Below are positions 23,608 through 32,025 of a stretch of 32,182 nucleotides of DNA, piece after piece. The number at the start of each line of letters is the position of its first letter. Position 1 is the first letter of the stretch. Origin of the DNA: Treponema sp. (GTDB taxonomy: Bacteria > Spirochaetota > Spirochaetia > Treponematales > Breznakiellaceae); assembly GCA_031283105.1 (NCBI GenBank), contig JAITCL010000071.1:1-32182 (forward strand). The letters are read 5' to 3'. Position numbers and translations under genes: made by a program. The notes under the pieces are model-generated. The model saw only the letters and a program-made list of their open reading frames with translations, had not been told where the DNA came from and made no database searches.

Positions 23608-23680
23608 GGGCCGTTAGCTCAGTCGGTAGAGCATCGCCCTTTTAAGGCGGTGGTCGGAGGTTCGAATCCTGCACGGCTCA
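23608..23680 (+). tRNA. tRNA-Lys (anticodon UUU)
   Basis: A 73-nt cloverleaf: acceptor GGGCCGT/ACGGCTC with one G-U pair, D-arm AGCTCAGTCGGTAGAGC, anticodon loop CTTTTAA with anticodon TTT, and T-arm with loop TTCGAAT. The discriminator is A and CCA is not encoded. An integrase gene begins 117 bp downstream, so its 3' half is the likely attachment site of the element to the right. Confidence 0.95.
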
Positions 23681-23797
23681 TTGGTAACTCCTTATCCTGT
23701 AAGGAATTACGTTTCTGTTGTTTTGATGTCATTATCCGAAATGGACTGGTAGTGCGCTTATCGTGCATTTATTTTTTCTCGTTCAAGGAGAAAGGAT

Positions 23798-25078
23798 ATG
23801 CCACGTCCGAAAAAACCGTACGTTATCCAGAAACGAAAAGGATCAAAAACGTATCTGTTGACGCTCAATGATACTTCCGGGCTATCGGTTCGTATATGCA
23901 AAGAATGGCAGCGCAAGAGCTTTCAGAATTTCCCGCCCGAGCTTATAGCCTACAGCAATCCCAAGACAAAAGCCGCAGCCGAAACCAGCGCAATGGTCTT
24001 GATCGCCTTTCTCAAAAGCGCCGGAACGTCTGTGCAGAAAAGAGATTTTCTTGTAGGAGACTGGCTACGCCTGTTCACATCCCTCGCCGACAGCCCGAAA
24101 GGGGCGCGGAACATTGCCGAGAATAACTCGTATTCCGAACAATCCATTGACCGTTTGAAAGGGATTTACGAAGTCCACATGAAAGATGATCCGTTCATGA
24201 AGCTGCTCATGTCAGAAATCGAAACGTCTGACGCGCTTGCCTTCATAAACCGTATGGGGTTGCGGAAGTTGACAGGTGGACCATACCGGAACAAGAAAGA
24301 CCCGCCGCAGATGATGGGAACCGAAACATTTGCCAAGTTGATCAAATTTGTCCGCATGGCGTTCAAGGAATATGGCCGCGAGCGCCCGTATTGGCGCAAC
24401 GCTTTCCAGTACATTGAACCGCCCAAAAACATACCGTACCGGGAACGGGACGCGATGCCGGAAGATGAAGTTCTCAGGCTCTTTGAACCTGGTGTGTTGC
24501 TTGACAGCATGGAAATAGCGGTCTGTGCCGCAATGTTTTGGGCTGGACTGCGGCGGTCTGAGGTTTTTGCGCTACGCCCGGAAGATTTGGATTGGCATAC
24601 TCCGAAGATCACGGTACGGAAGGCTTGGAAGAATTTTACCTATAAACGCCGGAAGTTGGGAACTACAAAGAGCAAGAGAGAGCGGATTATTCCATTTGAT
24701 GAATTTCTACAAAATGCCATTAAAAAACTGTGGGAAGAAAACGGGCAACATGAATTTGTTTTCTCGTTTGCTGACGGGACTACTCCGGGGCCGTCGTGGA
24801 TAAAATGCAGGTTTAAGAAATGGCTTGCCCGGGCCGGAATAGAATTGAATGGCCGTCACCTTGTACCGCACAGTAGTCGCCATTCCCTTGCGTCTATCCT
24901 TGAGGAGCGTAACGTACCGCTGCGGCACATTCAGGAATTACTCGGACACTCAAGCCTCAAGACAACCAAGCGTTATTTGCACTCCACCGATAAAACGCTC
25001 AGGGACATTAGAAATAAAACCAACGAAGCCAGAGAGAAACCGGAGCCGGAGGTCAAGATTATTCAATTCGCAGGATAG
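23798..25078 (+). CDS. int: Tyrosine-recombinase integrase
   Basis: Catalyses site-specific integration and excision of the element. The 426-residue protein has an N-terminal arm-binding region (about 1-100), a core-binding helical domain (about 100-200) and a catalytic domain. Catalytic residues seen are Arg252 (AGLRRSEVFALRPEDL), the HxxR box H358-SS-R361 with H362 (HSSRHSLASIL), His in LGHSSLKTT and the nucleophile Tyr393 (KRYLHS). All are present, so the enzyme looks intact. AAGGAG stands before the ATG. It is directly downstream of tRNA-Lys, the classical layout of a tRNA-integrated prophage or island, and it is transcribed away from the tRNA into the element. Confidence 0.95.
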   Translation: MPRPKKPYVIQKRKGSKTYLLTLNDTSGLSVRICKEWQRKSFQNFPPELIAYSNPKTKAAAETSAMVLIAFLKSAGTSVQKRDFLVGDWLRLFTSLADSPKGARNIAENNSYSEQSIDRLKGIYEVHMKDDPFMKLLMSEIETSDALAFINRMGLRKLTGGPYRNKKDPPQMMGTETFAKLIKFVRMAFKEYGRERPYWRNAFQYIEPPKNIPYRERDAMPEDEVLRLFEPGVLLDSMEIAVCAAMFWAGLRRSEVFALRPEDLDWHTPKITVRKAWKNFTYKRRKLGTTKSKRERIIPFDEFLQNAIKKLWEENGQHEFVFSFADGTTPGPSWIKCRFKKWLARAGIELNGRHLVPHSSRHSLASILEERNVPLRHIQELLGHSSLKTTKRYLHSTDKTLRDIRNKTNEAREKPEPEVKIIQFAG

Positions 25079-26570: not shown

Positions 26571-26978
26571 TTGAAAGATAATAGCGCATATAGTAGTATC
26601 TTAGATATGAATATCGTAAATCTTAATGGTAAAAAATCTTCGCAAATTGCCCGTGAATATGGCGTAACCCTTGGAAGAGTAAACCAATGGGCATTGGAAC
26701 ATGACATCCAGTGTGTCAGTTTCGATGGCGGCGCTACCGTAGAATTTTATGTGTTTGATGCGGCGGCGGAGGAAGCGTTTATAAACAGAAAGGTAAAGCC
26801 GGGGCCTGTGGCTACGGAGAAACCTCCCAAAGTGCCGGGGAAACCCGGTCGGCCCCGTAAAGAAAAACCGATAGATACCGGGCCGAAAAATCCGGGCGGG
26901 CGGCCCCATAAAAATCCCAAGAAAGCAATGGACATTGTGCCTAAACGACATGGTCGCGGAAGACCACGGAAGAAATAA
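26571..26978 (+). CDS. DNA-binding protein with HTH-like start and AT-hook tail
   Basis: 135 residues if the TTG at 26571 is used (AGGAAAAGG upstream); the first ATG is 12 codons in. Residues about 18-45 (GKKSSQIAREYGVTLGRVNQWA) look like a helix-turn-helix. The last 50 residues are rich in Pro, Lys, Gly and Arg, with three AT-hook-like units: KPGRPRKEKP, NPGGRPHKNPK and GRGRPRKK. AT-hooks bind the minor groove of AT-rich DNA such as the promoters seen in this element. This points to an architectural or regulatory role, by inference. It lies between the ssb terminator and the converging nuclease gene. Confidence 0.75.
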   Translation: MKDNSAYSSILDMNIVNLNGKKSSQIAREYGVTLGRVNQWALEHDIQCVSFDGGATVEFYVFDAAAEEAFINRKVKPGPVATEKPPKVPGKPGRPRKEKPIDTGPKNPGGRPHKNPKKAMDIVPKRHGRGRPRKK

Positions 26979-27149: not shown

Positions 27150-28511
27150 TTATGCCGGATTATCGCTCTTGTGCCGGTTGCAGTAGCGATGGGTAATCTG
27201 CGCGTTTTCCAGCGTGGTAGGTCCACCCTGACTGTACGGAATGATGTGATCTACCTCAGCGTCCTCTATCGCCATGATTTGGTTTTTACAGAGTTTACAG
27301 GTCGGGTCTGCGTCAAAGAGTTGCTTTTTGATGACATAAGGGAAAACCCGTGGGGAAGGCGGCGTATCCGCCAATATTTGCTTTAATACATTTAGCCATT
27401 TTTCAAACCTAAAGGTCATCTGTTTTGTACTGCTTGTTTGTGATTCGATGGACTGAATAAACTCTTCATCATTGCACATGAGGTCTAGCATTGCTTCACG
27501 AATTATATCAGAACGGTTAATTATCTGATTGCGTTCATAAGGCACAAATCCACACATCTGAATGTCAAACAATGCCATGTTAATGCGGATGGCACTCCAA
27601 TTGCCGTCACGGGTTACGGCATCTCCTGGCTTGAAACGCCTAAAAACATTTTCGCCGAATACCGAAAAACATAGCTCAACACATTTTTCAAATCTGTTTT
27701 GGTATTCCTTTGCTTTTTCCTCAAGGAGGTTACGGTTATTTCTGAGTTCTTTGTTACAGAATTGCTTCATACTGGGGCGGTAATTGATATAGGTTTTTTC
27801 TGAAAGGGCGAGAAACCGAAGAATCATCCCACGATATAACATACGGGTTTTGAAATTAGGTTTTCTGACCAATTTGTCGAAGGTCTTGTTATCAGCGAGC
27901 TTGTCTAATAGCTCAATGTACGGGCCCCGATAAACAGAATTTCTTATTTCATCCTCATTCAGCTTCATGGAACCGGTATTAAGGCGTTCAAAAATATCAA
28001 ATTTAACATCTTCATCCGATTCGTTTAGGATTTTAATTACATGGATGGGCGTATTTTGGATTTTTAATTGCATGGGTTTATCAAGATCAGAATATTTGCA
28101 TTTTAGATCAAGCATTTTCAGTCCACTTAATTTGAATTCCGTCCATCCCTCTTTTGTAGGAAATTTGTCGTCTATGAAAAAGAAAAAAGTGGAAAGGCGC
28201 TGTTGACCGTCTATTACGCTCATTGTTCCATCGGATTCTTCCGCTAAGTATATGGCAGGTAACGGAACATCCTGTAAGACCGATTCAATGAGCCTGCTTG
28301 CTTTTATTTTGTCATAAACATAATTCCGTTGCCATGTAGGGCTGAGATCAATTTCTCCGGTTTTATTTTTGTTATATAGTTCCTGGATCGAATAGTCCAT
28401 TGGACGCCAAAAGATTTTCTTATTAACACTTTTATCAAATACATCTTCGTCGCCTTTATCTTGTCCGTCTAATTCCTCTTTTTCGTTAATCTTCGCAAAT
28501 TCATCAGACAT
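27150..28511 (-). CDS. DUF262-HNH nuclease, candidate anti-phage protein
   Basis: 453 residues. The N-terminal DUF262 (ParB/GmrS-like) domain carries DLSPTWQRNYVYD and the signature DGQQRLST (residues 101-108), thought to use nucleotides. The middle is helical. The C-terminus is an HNH nuclease: Cys405 and Cys408 (CKLC), Asp421-His422 (EVDHIIPYSQGG), Asn436, and Cys444 and His447 (CNRH). All catalytic and zinc residues are present. DUF262 proteins with nuclease domains (GmrSD, SspE and relatives) cut foreign or modified DNA, which suggests but does not prove a defence role. AAGGGAG precedes the ATG. It follows the repressor gene by 26 bp on the same strand, so both should be expressed in the integrated state. 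Confidence 0.9.
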   Translation of the reverse strand: MSDEFAKINEKEELDGQDKGDEDVFDKSVNKKIFWRPMDYSIQELYNKNKTGEIDLSPTWQRNYVYDKIKASRLIESVLQDVPLPAIYLAEESDGTMSVIDGQQRLSTFFFFIDDKFPTKEGWTEFKLSGLKMLDLKCKYSDLDKPMQLKIQNTPIHVIKILNESDEDVKFDIFERLNTGSMKLNEDEIRNSVYRGPYIELLDKLADNKTFDKLVRKPNFKTRMLYRGMILRFLALSEKTYINYRPSMKQFCNKELRNNRNLLEEKAKEYQNRFEKCVELCFSVFGENVFRRFKPGDAVTRDGNWSAIRINMALFDIQMCGFVPYERNQIINRSDIIREAMLDLMCNDEEFIQSIESQTSSTKQMTFRFEKWLNVLKQILADTPPSPRVFPYVIKKQLFDADPTCKLCKNQIMAIEDAEVDHIIPYSQGGPTTLENAQITHRYCNRHKSDNPA

Positions 28512-28537: not shown

Positions 28538-28891
28538 TTATGCGTTTGCCGAGCTGGATAAAATATCGCCCCTTTTTGCATTTTCTAATTTCATCTCAAC
28601 AATGCCGAGTACATCACCTTGATCCCTGGAATCAAGCTGGCGGAAACCGTCAAGAAGTATCCGTTCATTTTGGGTAAAGCTAATTTCATCTTCTCCAGTT
28701 ATAAGCCATTTTACAGAAACACGAAGATAATCAGCAATTTTTATAGCTGTATCGGCTGCAGGGATGCTTTTTTTAATATTTGTTATATTTTGCGATTTAA
28801 TACCGATAGCCTTGCACATATTTAGCCTTTTCAGGTCTTTTTCTGCCAATACACCAATTATTCTATTAAAAATAGCTTTTCCGTCAGCCAT
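28538..28891 (-). CDS. XRE-family repressor
   Basis: 117 residues. The N-terminal helix-turn-helix (about 1-65: FNRIIGVLAEKDLKRLNMCKA, IGIKSQNITNIKKSIPAADT, AIKIADYLRVSVKWLITGED) is of the CI/XRE type. The C-terminal half is short and helical, without a visible LexA-type protease domain. No Shine-Dalgarno precedes the ATG. Divergent from it is the early rightward promoter with phased ATCATA-N4-TATGAT sites, its probable targets. Its operon continues into the DUF262-HNH gene. It is probably the lysogeny or maintenance repressor. Confidence 0.9.
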   Translation of the reverse strand: MADGKAIFNRIIGVLAEKDLKRLNMCKAIGIKSQNITNIKKSIPAADTAIKIADYLRVSVKWLITGEDEISFTQNERILLDGFRQLDSRDQGDVLGIVEMKLENAKRGDILSSSANA

Positions 28892-28919
28892 ATTACAATA
28901 TCGGCATCAAAATAAAAAA

Positions 28920-28997
28920 ATCATAAATTTTTTATTTTTTTCTTGACATAATCATAAAAATATGATATAAATAAATTATAAATCATAGATATATGAT
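28920..28997 (+). promoter_or_regulatory. Rightward promoter with three phased operator-like sites
   Basis: Promoter: TTGACA (28943-28948), 17 bp, TATAAA (28966-28971), predicted start near 28978. Sites: ATCATA-AAAA-TATGAT (28951-28966, in the spacer), ATCATA-GATA-TATGAT (28982-28997, just after the start) and a degenerate ATCATA-AATT-TTTTAT (28920-28935). The spacing is exactly 31 bp each time, about three helical turns. This is the layout of a repressor-controlled switch between the XRE gene and the rightward operon. Confidence 0.8.
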
Positions 28998-29277
28998 TTT
29001 ACCCCGAACGTCCCCGGGATGAGAAAGAGCGTTTTGTCAGCCAACGCCGGGGACGGCCGTAAGTTTTACGGTTCGGTGGAGGCTGGCAAAGCGCTTTTTT
29101 TATCCCTGCAAGCCTGTTTCGGCGGCGGCTGGGAGAAAAAGCTACAAAAAGACCGGAAACGGCCCGGAACTAGGCTATGCGCGGCGAAAGTTAGCAGTCC
29201 GGCAGCGCTGGGAATGGGGTGTGGAAAGTCCGAAAACAAGGCCCTTGCAGGAAGCATCGGCTGACAGGAGGTATGAA
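28998..29277 (+). ncRNA. Structured GC-rich leader with terminator-like stem and possible pseudoknot
   Basis: 280 nt between the early promoter and the first rightward gene. AGCGTTTTGTCAGCC (29028-29042) pairs with GGCTGGCAAAGCGCT (29081-29095) over 15 bp with two G-U pairs, followed by a run of T (to 29101). This looks like an intrinsic terminator or attenuator. Its 38-nt loop holds CCGTAA-GTT-TTACGG (29057-29071). The loop segment CCGGGGACG (29047-29055) is perfectly complementary to CGTCCCCGG upstream (29009-29017), giving a pseudoknot or a competing fold. A second domain is closed by CCTGCAAG (29105-29112) and CTTGCAGG (29244-29251) and contains CCG-GAAA-CGG (29153-29162). No known RNA family recognised. 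An 81-codon open frame overlaps it without a ribosome site. Confidence 0.7.
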
Positions 29278-29448
29278 ATGGCAAACGAACAAAAAACTAA
29301 AAGGAATGTCGGTGTTCGCAAGTTAAAGCCCATTGCGGTTTACGGTAGCAAGTCCGGCGGATGGTATCCAGTGTACCAAATAACAGAAACACCAAAAAGC
29401 GTCTCGCTCTTAGTTGGCGTAAGAAGCACCAGAGGGGGTGTTAAATGA
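29278..29448 (+). CDS. Small basic protein, first gene of the rightward operon
   Basis: 56 residues: MANEQKTKRNVGVRKLKPIA, then VYGSKSGGWYPVYQITETPK and a strand-rich end. The ATG at 29278 has AGGAGG 7 nt upstream; an ATG two codons earlier is too close to it. Lysine-rich start and beta-type remainder. No family recognised. Its stop overlaps the next start by 4 bp (ATGA). Confidence 0.75.
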   Translation: MANEQKTKRNVGVRKLKPIAVYGSKSGGWYPVYQITETPKSVSLLVGVRSTRGGVK

Positions 29449-29684
29449 ACTACGAATCTTACGACCAAGAATGGGACGAGACTTACGAGGAAATGTTTAA
29501 GTTTCAACCGGAATTGTATGACGATGTGCTTTGTTGCAATCCAGAGGTTCACGCTGGAAAAGTTGACAACATCAACATTCGTAACGGAATCCGCTATTAC
29601 ATGGTACGGCTTTCAGACGGCACTGTTGATGAATTCGCTGAATCAGATGTTTTGAAGCGAAAGATTGAAGAGGTAGCCGCGTGA
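29445..29684 (+). CDS. Small acidic protein of unknown function
   Basis: 79 residues, very acidic at the start (MNYESYDQEWDETYEEMFKF), then VHAGKVDNINIRNGIRYYMV and RLSDGTVDEFAESDVLKRKI, which may form a small beta barrel or SH3-like fold. ATGA overlap with the gene before and GTGA overlap with the gene after, so the three are coupled. Acidity raises the possibility of a DNA mimic, but nothing else supports this. Confidence 0.7.
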   Translation: MNYESYDQEWDETYEEMFKFQPELYDDVLCCNPEVHAGKVDNINIRNGIRYYMVRLSDGTVDEFAESDVLKRKIEEVAA

Positions 29685-29893
29685 TTGCCAGAACTTTGGA
29701 AAACAAGGCAAAAGCCGCTTATGAACATGGGAAAATGGACTTTTGGGCTGGCGCTCCCCGCGATCCCCAAACCCCATTGCGGGTTTACCGCGATCTAACC
29801 AAGGAACAGCAAACCATCATTATGGAGGCTTGGGAGAACGGTTGGCAAGATGAAAGCCTGATGCAAGCGCTACCGGACGGAATGCCGGCATGA
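29681..29893 (+). CDS. Small protein of unknown function (GTG start)
   Basis: 70 residues from the GTG at 29681, which overlaps the previous stop by 4 bp. It is helical, with KAKAAYEHGKMDFWAGAPRD and EQQTIIMEAWENGWQDESLM. The repeated helix-Gly-x-x-aromatic pattern (HGKMDFW, NGWQDE) is common in small phage proteins of this type, although I cannot name the family. The codon at the start makes a weak initiation site that depends on coupling. Confidence 0.65.
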   Translation: MIARTLENKAKAAYEHGKMDFWAGAPRDPQTPLRVYRDLTKEQQTIIMEAWENGWQDESLMQALPDGMPA

Positions 29894-29903
29894 GGATTTT
29901 TGT

Positions 29904-30185
29904 ATGAATGAAATAATGACAGGAAAAGCACTTGGCTTAAAAACAGTTCAGGGCCGGCTCTTGAAAGCGATAGAAGTTGCCGAACTTCTGCGAGTTAGTG
30001 AAAGATGGGTTCATAAGCATATGAGAGATGGGACTTTTCCAATTCGATGGTTCCCTATCGGAGAACGGGAACGTGTAGTTGATTCTGTTGAATTGGATAC
30101 ATGGCTTTCAAAAATAGTATTCAGTGCCGGAACTGCGCCACTGCCATTAAAGGCGGTCAGAAAATTCCGAAGGACGGCAAAATGA
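29904..30185 (+). CDS. Excisionase-like helix-turn-helix protein
   Basis: 93 residues. Residues about 18-72 match the MerR-like HTH_17/excisionase fold: LLKAIEVAELLRVSERWVHK, then HMRDGTFPIRWFPIGERERV with the winged arm, and DSVELDTWLSK. The C-terminal 20 residues are basic (KAVRKFRRTAK). Such proteins often direct excision with a tyrosine integrase or regulate early phage genes. Here it is far from the integrase, so a regulatory role is equally possible. Its stop overlaps the HU-like gene start by 4 bp (ATGA). Confidence 0.82.
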   Translation: MNEIMTGKALGLKTVQGRLLKAIEVAELLRVSERWVHKHMRDGTFPIRWFPIGERERVVDSVELDTWLSKIVFSAGTAPLPLKAVRKFRRTAK

Positions 30186-30481
30186 CAGGCAAATTTACCA
30201 GAACCAATATACAAGAAATTCTCCGGGGTTCCGGTCTAAATATTATTCAGGCAAGGGAGGCGGCCACCAAGATTATTTATAGCATGGCTGATTCTCTTGC
30301 CTCTGGAGAAGTAATTGAACTCCGGGGCCTGGGAACGCTTGAACAACGGGAACGGAAAGCCCGTGTTATGCACAATCCGCGCACAATGGCCGCGGTAAAT
30401 GTTCCTGCCCGGAGCGTCATCTTTTTTAAGCCTTCTGAAAAGCTGAAAATAGCAATCAATCAAAAGGAGGTAAGTATGTAA
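30182..30481 (+). CDS. HU/IHF-family DNA-bending protein
   Basis: 99 residues from the ATG at 30182, chosen because it forms the ATGA overlap and fits the family start (TGKFTRTNIQEILRGSGLNI). The DNA-binding signature appears as ELRGLGTLEQRERKARVMHN followed by PRT, matching the HU block GFGTFEVRxRxARxGRNPxT. HU-like proteins bend DNA for replication, recombination or repression. The frame continues upstream to 30101; that part lies within the preceding gene and is not needed. A strong hairpin follows the stop. Confidence 0.92.
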   Translation: MTGKFTRTNIQEILRGSGLNIIQAREAATKIIYSMADSLASGEVIELRGLGTLEQRERKARVMHNPRTMAAVNVPARSVIFFKPSEKLKIAINQKEVSM

Positions 30482-30489
30482 CAGATAAA

Positions 30490-30560
30490 AACCTTAATCC
30501 AGGGGGCCGGTACTTTGAAACCAGTCCTTTCGGTCCGGCTTCCCCGGATAAGGTTATTTT
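30490..30560 (+). terminator. Long hairpin after the HU-like gene
   Basis: AACCTTAATCC (30490-30500) pairs with GGATAAGGTT (30546-30555) with one bulged A. Inside it GGGG pairs with CCCC, and CCGG (30507-30510) with CCGG (30535-30538). ATTTTATCTT follows. It is probably an intrinsic terminator, or a regulated one, because the operon seems to go on 20 bp later. Confidence 0.65.
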
Positions 30561-30580
30561 ATCTTAACACAGGAGGGATT

Positions 30581-30754
30581 ATGAAAAAAGGTATTTGGTA
30601 CAGATTCGGTGTTTCGGTTAAAGAATTCGGCGAGCGCATGGGTCATATAAAAGTATTGGGTATTCCAATATTGCGCTGGTGTTGTAGCCTGGTAATCTGG
30701 CTGGGGCTTATCATTAAGGATTCGGTGCGTAACTGCCCGATTGAGGAAATATGA
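30581..30754 (+). CDS. Small membrane-associated protein
   Basis: 57 residues from the ATG at 30581 (AGGAGGG upstream): MKKGIWYRFGVSVKEFGERM, then GIPILRWCCSLVIWLGLIIK, a hydrophobic segment, and a short polar tail. Probably one membrane helix. Its end overlaps the next membrane peptide gene (ATGA). Two small membrane proteins in tandem could be lysis-related or involved in exclusion, but this is a guess. Confidence 0.65.
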   Translation: MKKGIWYRFGVSVKEFGERMGHIKVLGIPILRWCCSLVIWLGLIIKDSVRNCPIEEI

Positions 30755-30885
30755 AGGATTTGATAATTCTTGCCGGTGTTATTGTAGTATGCCTCGGTCT
30801 TGCTCTGGTCGCATTTTATTTCGGCTGGTCTGACGAATCTGACGATGACAAAGGGTTTCCCTATTCAAGGCGGGATAAAAAATGA
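30751..30885 (+). CDS. 44-residue single-pass membrane peptide
   Basis: Translated by hand: MKDLIILAGVIVVCLGLALV then a short membrane end and an acidic/basic tail (SDESDDDKGFPYSRRDKK). One transmembrane helix at the N-terminus. It begins in an ATGA overlap with the upstream gene and ends in an ATGA overlap with RusA, so it is part of the operon. Function unknown. Confidence 0.65.
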   Translation: MKDLIILAGVIVVCLGLALVAFYFGWSDESDDDKGFPYSRRDKK

Positions 30886-31304
30886 AGACCGTGTATCAGC
30901 TATTTGTAAACGGTATCCCCAAGGCGCAGCCCCGCCCCCGGATGACGGTCAACGGTCATGTGTATAATCCGTCTTCGGCGGATGCGTGGAAGGAAGAAGT
31001 CAAGGCTGCTTTTATTTCCTGCCGCCGCCCAATGATAACGGAACCGATACGCTTGAAGGTTTATTTTTTCATGCCTGTTCCCAAAGGAATGAAAATTGTA
31101 TGTAAAGACGGACATTATATGCCACATATTAAAAAACCTGATGCAGATAATTTACTCAAGGCTGTTATGGATGCACTAACAGAAGTGGGGGTTTGGAAAG
31201 ATGATGCTCTGGCCTTTTGGACAGAAGCGGTAAAATTTTATGCCGCAAATGAAAATTATCACGAAAAAACCGGGGCGCAAATTATTATCGAAACAGGATT
31301 TTAA
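30882..31304 (+). CDS. rusA: RusA-family Holliday-junction resolvase
   Basis: Cuts four-way DNA junctions during phage recombination or replication. The 140 residues show the family start FVNGIPKAQPRPRMT and the catalytic block KKPDADNLLKAVMDALTEVG (D87, D89, K93) with VWKDDA (D107/D108), matching the RusA metal site. Length is near the 120-140 norm. Start ATG overlaps the previous stop (ATGA). With SSB and HU it makes up the element's DNA-metabolism set. Confidence 0.93.
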   Translation: MKTVYQLFVNGIPKAQPRPRMTVNGHVYNPSSADAWKEEVKAAFISCRRPMITEPIRLKVYFFMPVPKGMKIVCKDGHYMPHIKKPDADNLLKAVMDALTEVGVWKDDALAFWTEAVKFYAANENYHEKTGAQIIIETGF

Positions 31305-31314
31305 GGGAGGAGAT

Positions 31315-31482
31315 ATGAAAAAGAAGAAACCGTACCGCTATGTTGATTTGAAAGATGTTGTATGCGCCTACACCGAAAAAGGCAAAGAGCATCATTATGA
31401 GTTCCCCGCGACAAAGAGACGAAAACAATTCCAGCTTCCGTGGCGGGTACAGGGCAAGGGCTTGAAAAGGAAATTGGTTTAA
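31315..31482 (+). CDS. Small basic protein after rusA
   Basis: 55 residues from the ATG at 31315 (GGGAGGAG upstream): MKKKKPYRYVDLKDVVCAYT, then EKGKEHHYEFPATKRRKQFQ and a basic end. Net charge strongly positive, so nucleic-acid binding is likely. No family recognised. A short hairpin (CCGC-ATA-GCGG, about 31488-31498) follows. Confidence 0.6.
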   Translation: MKKKKPYRYVDLKDVVCAYTEKGKEHHYEFPATKRRKQFQLPWRVQGKGLKRKLV

Positions 31483-31538: not shown

Positions 31539-31644
31539 GGGGACGTGGTGTTAATTGGCAGCACGTTGCGGTCGGGTTCAGCCGGTTAAAAACCAATGGC
31601 CAACACCGACAACGAAGGCGCAGGGTCGAGACCTGCCGTTCCCG
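31539..31644 (+). ncRNA. tRNA-like RNA with oversized anticodon-arm region
   Basis: Acceptor GGGGACG/CGTTCCC (31539-31545 and 31637-31643, with one G-U pair), a D-arm GTGT-TAATTGGCA-GCAC (31548-31564) and a T-arm GCAGG-GTCGAGA-CCTGC (31620-31636) are all in place. Between D and T arms are 55 nt rather than about 23. They fold into one long broken hairpin, GTTGCGGT...ACCGACAAC outside and GGTT-AAA-AACC at the tip. No anticodon loop of seven is visible. It may be an intron-bearing, degenerate or re-purposed tRNA. Confidence 0.55.
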
Positions 31645-31812
31645 TCAAGATTTACGGTACAGGTAGACCAAGTCTACTTGGAATCTGTGGGTACAACGCC
31701 GTATGTAGTCCCACCCGAAACCCGACCGGGTGAGAAGCATGAGAACGCCGGGAGCAGAACGGGGGACTTGGTTAATAGCCAGAGGCGTGACAGCCCGGAG
31801 AGACGGGCGCTT
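31645..31812 (+). other. Structured spacer in the tRNA cluster
   Basis: Several perfect stems occur: GTAGAC-CAA-GTCTAC (about 31664-31678), nested in ACAG/CTGT and TACGG/CCGTA; CACCCG...CGGGTG (about 31712-31732); and GCCCG-GAGAGA-CGGGC. Part of it (AGGTAGACC ... GTGGGTACAACGCCGTATG) recalls the middle of a tRNA-Leu, without a complete cloverleaf. No gene is evident. Confidence 0.45.
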
Positions 31813-31885
31813 TGTAGGGTGGAGCAGTTGGTAGCTTACCGGCCTCATAAGCCGGAGGACGCGGGTTCGATTCCCGACCCTACAA
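31813..31885 (+). tRNA. tRNA with CAT anticodon (Met or Ile2)
   Basis: A 73-nt cloverleaf: acceptor TGTAGGG/CCCTACA, D-arm GAGC-AGTTGGTA-GCTT, anticodon stem CCGGC/GCCGG with loop CTCATAA, and T-arm with loop TTCGATT. The outermost T-stem pair is a G-A mismatch. The discriminator is A and CCA is not encoded. Whether it reads AUG or, after modification, AUA cannot be told from sequence. It is carried by the element, as is usual for phage tRNAs. Confidence 0.88.
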
Positions 31886-31894
31886 AGGTAAGGC

Positions 31895-31932
31895 TTTTAC
31901 ATGGCACACCCCCCAAAGGTTGCCATGTAAGG
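31895..31932 (+). other. Perfect hairpin between tRNA genes
   Basis: TTACATGGCA (31897-31906) and TGCCATGTAA (31921-31930) form 10 bp, extended by two T-G pairs, around a C-rich 14-nt loop. No T-run follows, so it is probably a processing or stability element of the tRNA transcript rather than a terminator. Confidence 0.6.
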
Positions 31933-31961
31933 CTAATCGAAAGCGGAAACGTGAGTAGGTG

Positions 31962-32025
31962 TTGGAAAGTTAATGGTAACGGCGGTACGTTGTACCGTAT
32001 GCAGGTTCAATTCCTGTTTTCCAGC
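31962..32025 (+). ncRNA. Short tRNA-like sequence, anticodon-like GTT
   Basis: Acceptor TTGGAAA/TTTCCAG, a T-arm GCAGG-TTCAATT-CCTGT, and an anticodon-like arm GCGGT-ACGTTGT-ACCGT that would present GTT (Asn). The D-arm is reduced to GTTA-ATGG-TAAC, position 33 is C instead of T, and the variable region is two bases, giving 64 nt in all. It is a minimal or degenerate tRNA; function is uncertain. Confidence 0.5.

Follow-up and report, generated by a model that had tools for sequence, protein, structure and literature searches.

A conserved hairpin with a UNCG loop lies in the early-operon leader of a prophage (29104-29133, + strand) in the stretch of Treponema DNA analysed here, a window of 32,182 nucleotides carried on contig C162 of the draft genome G000 (2.79 Mb, 167 contigs). 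The hairpin is real, conserved, supported by covariation and on the right strand within the leader, and its likely reader is the NusG paralog LoaP of the host. Our preferred explanation, which we hold to be fairly probable, is that the leader carries a LoaP recruitment site and that the prophage uses the antiterminator of its host; a virus thus appears to borrow a control switch from the cell that it infects.

From 23.6 kb onward the window is a prophage or integrative element, which runs past the end of the contig, C162 terminating inside it. The features that matter for the leader and its setting are the following (positions in the window).

23608-25078, + strand: tRNA-Lys (23608-23680; gathering-score Rfam match), then a phage integrase gene (from 23798; Pfam), the element's left end
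From 26058: SSB gene
27150-28511, - strand: gene with GmrSD_N (DUF262) and HNH (Pfam), on the repressor side of the prophage
28538-28891, - strand: CI-like helix-turn-helix repressor gene, divergent from the early promoter
28943-28972, + strand: early promoter, read by eye as TTGACA (28943-28948), 18 nt, TATAAA (28967-28972)
29009-29017 and 29047-29055, + strand: 9-nt complement (possible pseudoknot), at chance level
29022-29101, + strand: long terminator-like hairpin ending in U7 (29095-29101), 5' of the UNCG hairpin
29104-29133, + strand: conserved UNCG hairpin, CCCUGC-AA-GCC-U-GU[UUCG]GC-GGC-G-GCUGGG, putative LoaP recruitment element
29278-29448, + strand: first early gene, 56 aa, function unknown, AGGAGG just before
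29445-31482, + strand: rest of the early operon inside the window, small unknown genes and three recognisable ones
From 29904, + strand: AlpA/excisionase-like HTH gene
From 30101, + strand: gene for an HU/IHF-like protein
From 30882, + strand: gene for a RusA-like resolvase
Within 31540-32023: tRNA-Met

The repressor matched Pfam HTH_26/Phage_CI_repr weakly, below Pfam's cut-offs, and the regulator families phrog_8/phrog_4. Two inverted repeats by the early promoter, ATCATAAAAATATGAT (28951-28966) and AATCATAGATATATGATT (28981-28998), are likely its operators, and a promoter scan listed no + strand promoter in the leader. The product of the 56-aa early gene had neither a relative among the 38 other genus genomes nor a Pfam or PHROG match; relatives of the early proteins were absent from viral contigs, and 194 other genomes of the family yielded one weak match. 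The GmrSD/HNH-type gene at 27150-28511 is a candidate defence or superinfection-exclusion gene. Elsewhere in the element, a small basic protein (26571-26978) has repeated, AT-hook-like PGRPRK/GRGRPRK motifs and no Pfam or PHROG family match, and the tRNA-Met lies amid tRNA-like stretches that ARAGORN does not call (e.g., the T-arm-like AGGTTCAATTCCTG near 32005), which may form a phage tRNA cluster with some degenerate members.

The first-pass annotation had outlined a structured leader between the repressor-controlled promoter and the first gene, of no family that it recognised, with a terminator-like stem, a pseudoknot and a second domain as its named elements. The outline proved sound, since a conserved antitermination-type hairpin lies in the leader, and Rfam had no match in the leader either, including the hairpin itself: only two tRNAs reached gathering score in the window, and 28850-29500 gave six chance-level matches up to E 10. 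The stem ending in a T-run is likewise present, and beyond chance. Its 15 bp (29028-29042, AGCGTTTTGTCAGCC, with 29081-29095, GGCTGGCAAAGCGCT; two G-U pairs; T7 at 29095-29101) are part of a 21-bp helix with G-U pairs (29022-29042 with 29081-29101), the longest in 28998-29277, which none of 300 dinucleotide shuffles matched. The 122-nt fold of 28980-29101 gave z = -7.6 and that of the whole 280 nt z = -4.4, and a terminator scan covering loops of up to 8 nt listed no + strand terminator in the leader.

The remaining elements fared less well. The perfect 9-nt complement exists, and the order of its strands gives an H-type topology, as does an 8-bp complement that would close the second domain (29105-29112 with 29244-29251) exist; but perfect complements of at least 9 and at least 8 nt occurred in 14.6% and 46.8% of 500 shuffles, respectively, so neither is beyond chance, and both the pseudoknot switch and the 8-bp second domain were dropped. 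No relatives of either were found in the 59-genome search or the phage collection. The 8-bp stem would also need the 5' arm of the hairpin at 29104-29133, the fold that relatives support, and it is missing from the minimum-energy fold of the 280 nt, which instead joins 29108 to 29180 and 29112 to 29175. Of the named elements, the terminator-like helix is real but was found nowhere else in the 58 other genomes searched; the conserved core at 29104-29133 had been counted as an arm of another stem. The same annotation had suggested an attenuator or antitermination site, which stands as far as the conserved hairpin is of the antitermination type and falls for the elements at chance level. An 81-codon frame (29019-29264) was rejected as coding, having no ribosome-binding site by eye and crossing a hairpin kept in the leaders of relatives.

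The strength of the upstream helix bears on two other readings of the leader. In one, the attenuator of the first-pass annotation, the 28998-29101 structure would be a terminator, a pseudoknot or rival fold would set readthrough, and 29104-29133 would be incidental. The helix with its U7 far exceeds chance and stands past the promoter and ahead of the first gene, as an attenuator would; against this, the pseudoknot pairing is no better than chance, homologues did not turn up in 59 genomes, the phage collection or the family genomes, and the hairpin at 29104-29133 is demonstrably conserved; we regard this account as improbable, while noting that a working terminator could coexist with the LoaP reading. 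In the other, the transcript to 29101 would be a phage RNA in its own right, about 120 nt long, with the LoaP hairpin serving the readthrough product only. The strong fold and the U7 end agree with this, whereas no relative was found in 58 other genomes and Rfam had no match; it would be compatible with our preferred explanation, and we consider it decidedly improbable. For the preferred reading, in which LoaP acts from 29104-29133, the helix is a separate feature beyond reach: LoaP loaded at the hairpin cannot help polymerase past 29022-29101, because the helix precedes the recruitment hairpin. Possible roles for the helix are the end of a short RNA, a 5' hairpin, or attenuation close to the promoter under some other control. 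In the 280-nt fold its base is extended by GGGAU (29016-29020) pairing with AUCCC (29102-29106), and since this extension overlaps the 5' arm of the UNCG hairpin the two structures can compete, as read from this one sequence.

Conservation of the hairpin became apparent when the leader DNA was searched against 59 genomes, which gave one weak match outside its own genome (E 8.9e-4, identical in 26 of the 29 letters of 29105-29133) and, in the 58 others, none to the terminator-like helix. As a pattern with up to two mismatches, 29105-29133 is present in 7 of 39 genomes of the genus, its own included. A 20-base core pattern (1 mismatch) found 30 places in 26 of 291 genomes of the order, where a reversed control pattern had 11 matches; six of the 30 (L028, L029, L038, L043, L044 and L045, in frames of 248-902 codons) were set aside by eye as coding-like or unpaired. 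A covariance model, R1, was then made from 30 aligned copies other than that of the window, comprising 23 places in the order and seven from genus and named genomes. All of them, four of which were folded, are built alike: the lower helix has up to 9 bp and is followed by AA/G or CA/G as internal loop, then GCC/GGC, the bulged U, GU/GC and finally UUCG as the loop. R1 recovered copies that the core pattern had missed: it matched 33 of the 291 order genomes and, in the taxonomic family, 57 places in 50 of 195 genomes and 29 of 56 genera (own genome included in both counts). A scan of genome contigs returned 72 stretches, 18 of which are spirochaetal and were taken by eye as family copies, whereas the other 54 all lie inside open frames of at least 138 codons. 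The family-copy contigs in named records are assigned to Treponema, Spirochaetaceae, Spirochaetia or Spirochaetes, mostly as MAGs, and many of these bins presumably come from termite guts, to judge by their names. Open frames are not decisive, as 21 of the 46 members of the later alignment also lie in frames of at least 100 codons; one locus, L293 (30.2 bits), in a frame of 730 codons, may be a coding chance match.

The window copy scored 40.0 bits with R1 (E 1.6e-9 in the window, 1.4e-7 in the genome), below most other aligned members, and is almost certainly a member of the family. It has the R1 core AAGCCUGUUUCGGCGGCGGC, the UNCG loop and the bulged U, partly by construction since the seed pattern came from the window. 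The lower helix was absent from that pattern, and five of its six inner pairs form in the window copy, with one mismatch. On its own, the 36-nt stretch folds as expected, with a z of only -1.0, no better than many shuffles; and the UNCG hairpin, though in the 5' leader, is absent from the whole-leader minimum-energy fold, in which its 5' arm pairs elsewhere. Within G000 the prophage copy is the only convincing R1 match, the next best reaching 16.6 bits at a threshold of E 10.

Covariation provides strong evidence that R1 is an RNA hairpin with a UNCG loop. In a first alignment of 30 copies (27 distinct), 6 of 14 pairs changed on both sides, and four of five covariation measures were above nearly all shuffles, the fifth being equalled in 196 of 500. 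The larger alignment, A2, has 46 matches, namely 44 of the 57 family places (window included), L290 from another family of the order and L101 from a named record; the 13 family places left out were mostly weaker. In its 43 distinct rows, the window being one, pairing holds in 90.1% of cells and both sides have changed in 10 of 14 pairs; double changes occupy 38 cells, compared with 12.9 in shuffles, with none of 500 shuffles reaching any of the five observed measures. Slid controls, in which double changes never exceeded 14 cells, make the safer comparison because the alignment was fitted to the model and the shuffle control ignores kinship. The lower helix covaries across the family (43 distinct rows), and the loop, mostly UUCG, is UACG in L272 and UCCG in L283. 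Compensatory changes, whose lack the first-pass annotation had named as telling against a structured leader, are thus present at 29104-29133. An upper pair changes from C-G to G-C in L282 and L290, loci from two different families of the order (genomes G065 and G067, families f1 and f5), where a compensatory GCG/CGC upper helix stands before flippase- and glycosyltransferase-like genes.

R1 copies sit close to genes, the first sense ORF of at least 90 codons beginning within 130 nt of the motif in 19 of 24 loci. Among nine first genes, taken from 20 downstream genes, that were analysed with Pfam, seven are of envelope or polysaccharide types (VanZ, NTP_transferase, Polysacc_synt (flippase), DegT_DnrJ_EryC1, ABC2_membrane, Glycos_transf_4 and UDPG_MGDP_dh_N) and two are ATPases (AAA_21 and ABC_tran); VanZ-, rml-, epimerase- and flippase-like genes were seen by eye at further loci. 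In the loci examined, R1 hairpins therefore mostly precede surface-polysaccharide genes. This is not the case in the window, where phage early genes follow: the window copy is a structural member of R1 before a different type of operon, in the only phage-like setting found for the family. Some R1 operons, L294 and L295, start with AAA ATPase-like genes as in defence or toxin-antitoxin systems, followed by sugar genes.

A single phage copy raises the question of whether it is a passive, functionless relic of host DNA, to which we assign a low probability. It is the one phage copy known, its lower stem is mismatched, and a 16-base core pattern found at least 100 stretches in viral contigs that included seven R1 matches up to E 1, the best of which (24.5 bits with E 0.0016; 23.8 bits with E 0.0026) sit in open frames of 142 and 503 codons and were taken as chance. 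In further searches of viral sequence, the leader had no match in the phage collection, and a first pattern, AAAGTTAGCAGTCCGGC, found 4 viral stretches in unrelated contexts and was abandoned. Against a relic, the copy has an intact core and reads in the sense direction within an early leader, and at column 10 it has A where all 11 genus copies of A2 have C, which means that it was not copied recently from a typical host leader of the genus type.

The identity of the reader was approached through LoaP, a NusG paralog of Bacillota, Actinomycetota and Spirochaetota that is often encoded beside secondary-metabolite or polysaccharide operons, according to PMC12691694. There, LoaP of B. velezensis is described as binding a UNCG-loop hairpin in the dfn leader that is required for terminator readthrough (PMC12691694). 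G000 encodes LoaP (NF033641; G000:C131:19544-20044) at 142.6 bits, above the curated cut-off of 125, with a Polysacc_synt_2 gene directly 3' of it. Beyond the spirochaetes, 17 loaP loci were collected; they come from 15 genomes among 250 of the class to which the Listeria locus L094 belongs (hereafter Bacilli). In one of them, L309, a hairpin beside loaP has the same plan as R1, 3 bp, a bulged U, 2 bp and UNCG, and a search with a descriptor of this plan found it in 4 of the 17 loci (L304, L309, L311 and L312), within about 340 nt of loaP, while 200 shuffles of the 17 loci gave a mean of 0.055 and a maximum of 1. As the descriptor was written from L309 and R1, L309 is not independent; the other three are. 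Two of the four hairpins lie 47-48 nt after the loaP stop, one lies about 130 nt before loaP and one is divergent, about 335 nt from the loaP start. They share with R1 the 3 bp, the bulged U, GU/GC or GC/GU closing pairs, the UNCG loop, a small internal loop and a lower helix, but their helix sequences differ: none is an R1 match, and the full model gave only three 9-nt partial matches, at chance level, on the Bacilli loaP loci. A slightly wider descriptor had 7 matches in 904 kb of viral loci. We favour LoaP as the reader because this bulged-U UNCG plan recurs near loaP in 4 of 17 Bacilli loci, because LoaP is encoded in the genome, and because a UNCG hairpin is its published target.

Several results were counted against LoaP. 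In the order, 59 loci around loaP/NusG genes gave no R1 match better than 16.8 bits (E 0.075). A generic descriptor found nothing in 30 of them, all loaP loci; it had three matches in nine other loaP/NusG loci, two of them several kilobases from loaP. The window hairpin is followed by no simple terminator in the next 160 nt, unlike that of dfn, although weak candidates occur farther on (e.g., 30399-30417 and 30533-30549); across the 46 aligned copies, 9 have a simple terminator within 160 nt 3' of the hairpin, where 2.65 are expected. Co-occurrence of LoaP and hairpin is only moderate: among 195 draft genomes of the family, uncorrected for kinship and with LoaP scored absent when there was no match at E <= 1e-30, 41 had both, 9 the hairpin only, 92 LoaP only and 53 neither (Fisher p = 0.021), and two of the nine hairpin genomes without LoaP are over 90% complete. 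E40 and R41 are the published residues shown to recognise the dfn hairpin, and they were mapped via LoaP of the Bacilli locus L304, whose positions 40 and 41 are precisely E and R. The E40 position was E in 13 of 13 readable Bacilli proteins and in 1 of 24 from Treponema, two further Treponema loci yielding no protein. The R41 position, R or K in Bacilli, speaks for LoaP instead, being basic in all 24 Treponema proteins (R in 23, K in 1).

These results leave room for a different reader. RfaH is a NusG paralog recruited to surface-polysaccharide operons, and the hairpin could be a polysaccharide-operon leader element read by another RNA-binding protein, or as DNA like the ops site of RfaH, with the phage copy working via that factor. 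Such a reader would accommodate the lack of LoaP in 9 of 50 hairpin genomes, the lack of hairpin-loaP linkage in the 59 loci, and the absence of E40 in 23 of 24 Treponema proteins, and an invariant GGCGGCGG-like stretch seems to resemble ops. We nevertheless think it unlikely, as the same architecture occurs near loaP in 4 of 17 Bacilli loci and LoaP is published as recognising a UNCG hairpin in a leader (PMC12691694). The DNA variant faces a further difficulty, since ops is read as non-template DNA (PMC12691694), whereas covariation and the changes within the UNCG loop argue that R1 is read as RNA.

If LoaP is the reader, polymerase leaving the repressor-controlled promoter would copy the leader until the nascent hairpin at 29104-29133 emerges and is bound by the host LoaP, which would join the elongating polymerase and make it resistant to NusA-assisted pausing and termination, so that the modified polymerase could reach the distal phage genes. 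Binding of the hairpin by Treponema LoaP and the action of the hairpin on the phage operon are both predictions of this scheme. More tentatively, and at somewhat less than even odds, a temperate spirochaete phage could have put its early operon under the host's surface-polysaccharide antiterminator, coupling its development to the state of the host surface and possibly to the presence of its receptor. The phage would then rely on the specialised NusG paralog of its host and not on an antiterminator of its own.

Early phage leader RNAs that modify RNA polymerase are familiar from lambda nut and HK022 put. The likeness to these lies in the early phage leader RNA; here Rfam had no match and the proposed factor is a host NusG paralog. 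Among the closest known systems are the dfn and mln leaders of B. velezensis, an organism with LoaP, where a UNCG RNA hairpin likewise sits in the 5' leader, past the promoter and ahead of the first gene; they differ in that they belong to polyketide operons and have the leader terminator after the hairpin, whereas the window has phage early genes and a strong terminator-like helix that precedes its hairpin (PMC12691694, with the dfn hairpin compared by its published description and not by its letters). In Eggerthella lenta, LoaP has been linked to capsular polysaccharide clusters in a phage-resistance setting (PMC13174815); the association with surface polysaccharide is common to both cases, while the accessible part of that paper describes neither an RNA site nor a phage-borne one (PMC13174815). 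Within the open-access literature, we found no paper pairing LoaP with Treponema, no LoaP target site in Spirochaetota, though the protein is known there, and, among the matches listed, no phage early leader with a site for a NusG paralog. Neither LoaP nor its UNCG hairpin is new; the new findings are the Treponema hairpin family with its covariation and the prophage copy, although reference 53 of PMC12691694, an earlier paper on the hairpin seen through its citation there, may already describe spirochaete hairpins. R1 provides a concrete, covariation-supported candidate LoaP target site for Spirochaetota, the prophage copy suggests a phage exploiting its host's specialised NusG paralog, and the bulged-U UNCG architecture common to Treponema and Bacilli defines what LoaP may recognise. 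The R1 model also makes regulons of uncultured spirochaetes searchable.

Host leaders carrying R1 show further elements around the hairpin. A conserved hairpin 5' of R1 was suggested by eye and was not significant in 45 loci (mean z -0.78 vs -0.29, p = 0.08). In leaders of genus g1 (L009, L015-L017, L273 and L277), a second short hairpin, CCNN-UUU(U)-NNGG, lies 3' of R1, with a U-run in L273, and is a candidate pause or terminator. Finally, by eye, most of L020-L027, L030 and L033-L035, from several genera, have a GTTGTTCAAA...TTGAACAAC-type palindrome, or half of it, about 100 nt 5' of the hairpin and then a TATGCTAT-like -10 box, which possibly points to a shared transcription regulator of these operons.
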